This document shows positions 21,560 through 21,575 of a DNA stretch of 36,720 nt, one piece after another. Where the stretch lies: positions 1 through 36,720 of the forward strand of contig JAHFRD010000025.1 in NCBI GenBank assembly GCA_023258975.1. Direction: 5' to 3'. The DNA is from Hydrogenophilales bacterium. Lineage in GTDB: Bacteria; Pseudomonadota; Gammaproteobacteria; Burkholderiales; Thiobacillaceae. The notes beneath the pieces are model-generated. The model was not told where the DNA came from and made no database searches. It saw only the letters and a program-made list of their open reading frames with translations. Made by a program: the position numbers and the translations under genes. Each line of letters starts with the position of its first letter. Positions within the stretch are counted from its first letter, which is position 1.

Positions 21560-21575
21560 GGTTTCACGTGGAACA
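21560..21575. promoter_or_regulatory. parS-like ParB-binding site across the gyrB start codon
   Basis: The 16 bases GGTTTCACGTGGAACA match the bacterial parS pattern TGTTNCACGTGNAACA at every defined position except the first; the inner 14-mer GTTNCACGTGNAAC is perfect. The GTG start codon of gyrB (21568-21570) forms part of the central CACGTG, and the upstream AGG ribosome-binding bases touch the left edge. parS sites are typically found near oriC, which is about 1.3 kb away here. Confidence 0.75.

Follow-up and report, generated by a model that had tools for sequence, protein, structure and literature searches.

Among described systems, the closest to the locus analysed here is found in Pseudomonas aeruginosa, in which parS1 and parS2 lie beside gyrB near oriC, within the recF coding sequence of the dnaA-dnaN-recF-gyrB operon (PMC4368675, PMC5521831). 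Intragenic chromosomal parS sites are also comparable, being centromere sites that overlap a gene as in our case, and 9 of the 10 parS sites of P. aeruginosa PAO1 were predicted inside coding sequences (PMC4368675). In Caulobacter, the recF-gyrB region is a hot spot of parS insertion, which likewise points to a preference, still unexplained, for parS at gyrB (PMC5815017). However, the present arrangement differs from both systems. Unlike in P. aeruginosa, recF does not stand between dnaN and gyrB and the parS-type site contains the gyrB start codon itself, and whereas the Caulobacter sites were transposon insertions that left gyrB transcription unchanged (PMC5815017), this site is natural and located at the start codon. 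In the literature searched, from which the principal survey of parS sites (Livny et al. 2007) was missing, we found no description of a parS site that both provides a start codon and has bases in common with a Shine-Dalgarno sequence, although one may have been described before.

The window, by which we mean the whole stretch of 36,720 nucleotides that was analysed, contains the gene row dnaA, dnaN, gyrB (Table 1). The preliminary description of this DNA had pointed to a parS-like 16-mer matching at all defined bases but the first, to a CACGTG that holds the gyrB GTG, and to contact with the ribosome-binding site, and all of this was borne out. The 16-mer GGTTTCACGTGGAACA agrees with the parS consensus TGTTNCACGTGNAACA at 13 of 14 defined bases and deviates at base 1, exactly as described, and by its sequence it is a parS-type site. 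The 828-aa product scores 1246.7 bits against the NCBIfam profile for DNA gyrase subunit B (NF011501), and because its residue 8 aligns with profile position 8, the GTG stands at position 1 of the GyrB profile. Within the window, the next in-frame candidates for a start are a TTG, at a distance of 23 codons upstream, and a GTG, at 57 codons. The base that breaks the consensus, G at 21560, is part of the Shine-Dalgarno AAGG, for which the pairing with the anti-Shine-Dalgarno sequence is about -3.8 kcal/mol (L040).

Table 1 Features of the dnaA-dnaN-gyrB region in the window
Feature	Position	Strand	Remark
parS-type site GGTTTCACGTGGAACA	21560..21575	+	one-mismatch consensus match; 14-bp core GTTTCACGTGGAAC at 21561-21574
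GTG start codon of gyrB	21568..21570	+	within the CACGTG of parS
Shine-Dalgarno AAGG	21558..21561	+	6 nt 5' of the GTG; final two bases double as bases 1 and 2 of the parS 16-mer
gyrB, 828 aa	21568..24054	+	GTG-initiated ORF
dnaN	20378..21487	+	ends 80 bp 5' of the gyrB GTG; recF not between
dnaA	18637..20133	+	ORF as listed; true start may be internal
dnaA-dnaN gap, probable oriC	20134..20377	.	DnaA boxes

Our preferred reading, to which we give a probability of roughly 0.76, is that of an oriC-proximal, vertically inherited chromosomal parS doing double duty, in which the centre of the palindrome would give gyrB its GTG and the left edge would be shared with the Shine-Dalgarno sequence. The main role of such a site would be the loading or nucleation of the ParB clamp, as one of several such sites for origin segregation, and its effect on gyrB would probably be small and incidental. 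We infer that ParB binds here and that the GTG is used in vivo. Against this reading, base 1 is off-consensus in 24 of the 35 sequences in which the site is placed in the same way (see below), and the ParB of this genome has H at position 162, at which Caulobacter ParB has Q. P. aeruginosa likewise tolerates a single mismatch to the palindrome, at an outermost base, in its parS1 and parS4, and segregation there needs no more than one site out of parS1-4 (PMC4368675). If the reading holds, one DNA word is seemingly under two constraints, that of a centromere and that of the start of an essential gene, and has been kept so in five genera of one family, which offers a natural system to ask whether ParB loading disturbs the expression of the gene beneath.

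The preliminary description had also proposed searching the whole genome for the motif to test for clustering near oriC. The pattern GTTNCACGTGNAAC, with 12 fixed bases and a chance expectation of about 0.2 by arithmetic, has 3 exact sites in the 3.63-Mb genome, while a reversed-pattern control has 0, and a chance match was rejected on this ground. One of these is the site at the gyrB start; the other two, at 71703 and 80386 of contig C4, carry the motif GTTTCACGTGAAAC and lie one on each side of parB. Matches with one mismatch number 6 in all, the 3 exact ones included, versus 7 in the control, and are thus background; the one-mismatch sites on contigs C5, C13 and C27 were rejected as parS, since such sites are equally frequent in the control. 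When the window alone was scanned with TGTTNCACGTGNAACA, the gyrB site was the sole one-mismatch match and two further matches had three mismatches. In shuffled sequences 1.05 matches are expected when as many as three mismatches are allowed, and three matches were reached in 11 of 100 shuffles, so that the one-mismatch match alone is notable.

The genome also encodes a chromosomal-type ParA-ParB pair with parS-specific residues. The ParB helix-turn-helix lies at 76371-76667 of contig C4, within the gene row gidA-gidB-parA-parB, after which come ATP synthase genes, and the protein carries the N-terminal, helix-turn-helix and C-terminal Pfam domains. R173 and G201, which are among four specificity residues and are described as conserved in all extant ParB orthologues (PMC7383237), are kept in all 11 ParBs compared, that of this genome included, and alignment to Caulobacter ParB shows Q162 replaced by H and K171 by R. 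The probable oriC is the dnaA-dnaN gap, which contains three exact DnaA boxes (20171, 20204 and 20240) and two one-mismatch boxes (20275 and 20329) and lies about 1.2-1.4 kb from the parS-type site. Because the assembly (G000) consists of 37 contigs, the distance from the gyrB site to the other two is taken from relatives, in which the sites cluster: five lie within 36 kb in G431 and four within 21 kb in G425, two relatives with long contigs, and the one-contig genome G043 (about 2.7 Mb) has sites at 2856 (gyrB), 38699, 2712816 and 2714884, with parB at 2708579. The site is thus close to the probable origin and, judging from these relatives, clusters with the other genomic sites. A perfect parS, TGTTTCACGTGAAACA, was also seen at L039:14386-14401, 20 nt 5' of the first gidA ATG, although the true gidA start may be internal.

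We then compared gyrB start regions within the family. Of 95 same-family genomes that matched the GyrB N-terminus, 70 start regions were read, 40 of them from a sampling that took in every unlisted genome outside genus g3 with a full match and 14 of g3. The 25 unread ones comprise 21 genomes of g3, the partial matches G419, G422 and G424, and G446, which has only a paralogue match at 57% identity, and this is why 22 and not 23 members of the window's genus are counted. Absence of the motif from relatives would have spoken against the site, but it is present in many: the core GTTTCACGTGGAAC, placed such that its GTG is in frame with GyrB, hereafter the start-type arrangement, occurs in 35 of the 70 regions and in 5 genera (22/22 read of the window's genus, 5/5 of g2, 4/7 of g5, 1/1 of g164 and 3/3 of g165). 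The overlap of a parS-type site with the gyrB start is therefore real and conserved. In 6 of the 70, parS stands 5' of an ATG (three in g5 and one each in g160, g162 and g163), in 2 of the 70, both of g161, a one-base variant, GTTTCACATGAAAC, stands ahead of an ATG, and in 27 of the 70 parS is absent at the gyrB start (16 of g3, 8 of g4, 2 of g166 and 1 of g161). The Shine-Dalgarno AAGG was found in 22/22 of the regions read in the window's genus by column counts.

Outside the family the arrangement is mostly a different one. The order was screened with a strict pattern, in which parS lies 62-92 nt before the codons for the GyrB motif GMYIG. Matches came from 52 of 399 genomes and 19 of 159 genera, with 0 matches in the control and 347 of the 399 unmatched, and beyond the order 3 of 365 genomes of a class-wide sample matched. 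Judged from the matched strings and the loci, 8 of the 52 are start-type (five of the window's genus, two of g2, and G011 of another family), and the remaining 44 have parS ahead of an ATG. A gyrB tree of 86 rows, built with the start region excluded, requires 7 changes of the start-type state, and forcing the 23 start-type rows of family f1 together was rejected (p-AU 0.013) in one test on a quick tree, with the group picked after the trait had been observed. A single clade of these rows is thus disfavoured, and the start-type state, judged from this tree, has probably switched more than once. A 32-row clade (SH-aLRT 96) contains 22 of the 23 f1 start-type rows, and the placement of L027 of G011, a long branch (0.45), is unsure. 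The nearest named gyrB loci, those of Rhodocyclaceae MAG PRO19 and MAG UBA2592 at 73% identity, also fall inside the 32-row clade, and neither is among the loci listed with parS at gyrB. One start-type locus labelled as the window's genus, L060 of G261, has a GyrB that branches outside the other nine tree rows of that genus. In seven loci of family f38 (L020-L026), parS extends to one base before the ATG of gyrB, into the place in which a Shine-Dalgarno sequence would be expected.

Every base of the 14-mer is invariant in the 35 start-type sequences. Averaged over sequence pairs, identity amounts to 100% in both 7-nt arms and to 28%, 30% and 38% in three upstream stretches of 14 nt (29%, 30% and 44% within the window's genus alone), 34 distinct upstream 25-mers occur among the 35 sequences, and identity just downstream of the 14-mer is 52%. 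If the GTG is the start, the left arm is noncoding, and its identity in 35/35 against upstream flanks of 28-38% indicates a constraint independent of coding. On the coding side, codon 2 is GAA in 35/35, while across these gyrB stretches Glu is written as GAA in 54% of cases. Codon 3 varies in meaning (H in 20, P in 8 and Q in 7) with C as its first base throughout; a fixed GAA followed by a variable codon that always begins with C places the constraint at least partly on the DNA word.

Between the GTG and the conserved motifs of GyrB the distance changes only by threes, and indels after this codon preserve the frame. No alternative ATG, GTG or TTG lies between the last in-frame stop and the GTG in 17 of the 35 sequences (in L042 the contig end serves as the limit), and in 8 of the 35 an in-frame stop precedes the GTG by 6 codons or fewer, with no competing start between them. 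An in-frame ATG stands three codons upstream in 4/4 start-type sequences of g5, and an in-frame TTG in 5/5 of g2 and in L073 and L075; in these, translation may begin at the upstream codon, which would make the GTG codon 4 and place all of parS in coding sequence. Base 1 of the 16-mer is G, within the Shine-Dalgarno sequence, in 24 of the 35 and the consensus T in the other 11, in which the Shine-Dalgarno AGGA lies slightly farther upstream. This pattern would agree with a compromise in which the outermost base of parS is weighed against binding of the ribosome.

Since the GTG, the Shine-Dalgarno bases and codon 2 all fall inside the motif, a demand of translation initiation alone, with an incidental likeness to parS, might be thought to explain it. 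However, the TTTCAC between the Shine-Dalgarno sequence and the GTG is invariant in 35/35, while a spacer needs no fixed sequence; the same motif GTTTCACGTGAAAC occurs on both sides of parB; 44 of the 52 matches in the order are not at a start codon; and in G414 and G421 the gyrB-side site and a second site alike read GTTTCACATGAAAC. We regard this explanation as very unlikely and reject initiation as the sole cause. Even less credible is an mRNA hairpin formed by the palindrome that would hide the start codon and control gyrB translation. The arms can pair, with a predicted pairing of 0.8-0.9 in some sequences, but over 36 sequences the predictions scatter, with arm pairing anywhere between 0.00 and 0.90 and mean start-codon accessibility between 0.01 and 0.64, so a conserved hairpin was rejected for want of a consistent predicted structure.

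How a parS site could come to lie at a start codon is suggested by gammaproteobacteria that carry recF. An exact parS precedes gyrB in 20 non-beta loci, of which we examined 17 for reading frame (all but L156, L160 and L163), titled as gammaproteobacteria or, for two, only as proteobacteria, and in 17/17 the ORF before gyrB ends in xFHV[EK][HQR]G, encoded through parS. All 10 of the pre-gyrB ORFs that were submitted were identified as RecF. In G525, of another order, the recF tail LFHVEHGEITQ is coded through parS, and its TGA overlaps the gyrB ATG. RecF was not found above the family cut-off in any of 22 genomes of the window's order, a hand-picked and non-random set, while G525 was positive; in G562, which is outside the order and has parS before gyrB, RecF was not above the cut-off either. 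The simplest history would be that recF was lost, its parS was left behind, and the site was later captured as a start. In this scenario, the ancestral parS would have been inside the last codons of recF, just 5' of gyrB, in recF-bearing gammaproteobacteria; after the loss of recF the terminal parS would have been kept as a gyrB leader between dnaN and gyrB, mostly before an ATG; a minority of the order, with its tested members lacking recF, would retain this leader parS; and gyrB would have come to start at the parS GTG in some members of the window's family and, it seems, a second time in G011. The arrangement was most likely inherited vertically, although with 347 of 399 order genomes unmatched, vertical descent of the position needs many losses or moves. 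It also suggests a way for parS to outlive recF, its carrier in related bacteria.

The preliminary description had proposed in addition that the site ties chromosome segregation to gyrase supply, a link that the analysis did not support. In the corresponding explanation, ParB at parS would bar RNA polymerase or the ribosome at the gyrB start, and gyrase would follow ParB occupancy and origin number. The overlap with the start codon and the Shine-Dalgarno sequence is in keeping with this, as is the recurrence of parS by gyrB in 52 of 399 order genomes and 19 of 159 genera and at the ends of gammaproteobacterial pre-gyrB ORFs. Some published results also agree: gyrB was listed as two-fold lower on ParB overproduction in P. 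aeruginosa (PMC5521831), the intergenic parS3 and parS4 of that species repress their neighbours (PMC7022226), and parS insertions in Caulobacter were favoured around recF-gyrB (PMC5815017). However, an important control would be expected to preserve the gyrB-side site throughout the lineage, and 27 of the 70 same-family starts lack parS, the strict pattern is unmatched in 347 of 399 order genomes, and outside the family parS mostly precedes an ATG. Moreover, gyrB transcription in Caulobacter did not change when parS was inserted close to the gene (PMC5815017), and loss of Spo0J had no effect on parS-adjacent genes in Bacillus subtilis (PMC7022226). In P. aeruginosa deficient in ParB or in parS1-4, expression near parS1-4 was unchanged save for the genes repressed through parS3 and parS4 (PMC7022226). 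These published results on parS-linked expression thus point both ways (PMC5521831, PMC5815017, PMC7022226).

A consensus scan of 20100-21700, which is weak evidence, found 0 sigma-70-like promoters versus 0.6 expected in shuffles. An overlap of parS with a promoter was set aside on this ground, the result also speaks against regulatory coupling, and parS may sit within a dnaN-gyrB transcript and not at a promoter. Taken together, we hold regulatory coupling to be unlikely, and strong regulation of gyrB by the site is probably absent. A more specific version, in which ParB loading on new origins would briefly close the gyrB start at the DNA level as a selected control, with the shared G that replaces T as the first parS base adjusted to balance ParB affinity against translation, seems to us distinctly improbable; if true, it would tie gyrase synthesis to the segregation state.

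Some further variants of the motif were observed. In g161, a genus with small genomes, GTTTCACATGAAAC sites lie at 19930 and 28363 of contig C20 in G414, at 7649 and 16122 of C44 in G421 and at 8127 of C39 in G428. The g161 ParB proteins that accompany these sites have S at 170 and P at 174. Both positions are S in G408, whose sites contain CACGTG, and G400 combines a ParB of the S and P kind with neither type of site. It is possible that parS has shifted together with ParB in this genus. Two other parS-like sequences with one base changed were found in the corresponding place before gyrB, TGTTCCGCGTGGAACA in L158 and L184 (Pantoea, Rouxiella) and TGTTTCATGTGGAACA in L152, L162, L169, L173, L176 and L188 (titled Vibrio, Vibrionales or Photobacterium).

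BREX genes lie within 35-14954 of the window (PglX at 35-3082 and BrxC at 6268-9762), contig C4 carries BrxL and the C-terminus of a PglZ, and a tyrosine recombinase adjoins the 3' end of mnmE (L039:16940-19497). This suggests a BREX island between mnmE and gidA, parting the gyrB parS from the parS sites at parAB, with the contigs presumed to be adjacent. SGI1 likewise integrates at the 3' end of mnmE/trmE (PMC10954446).
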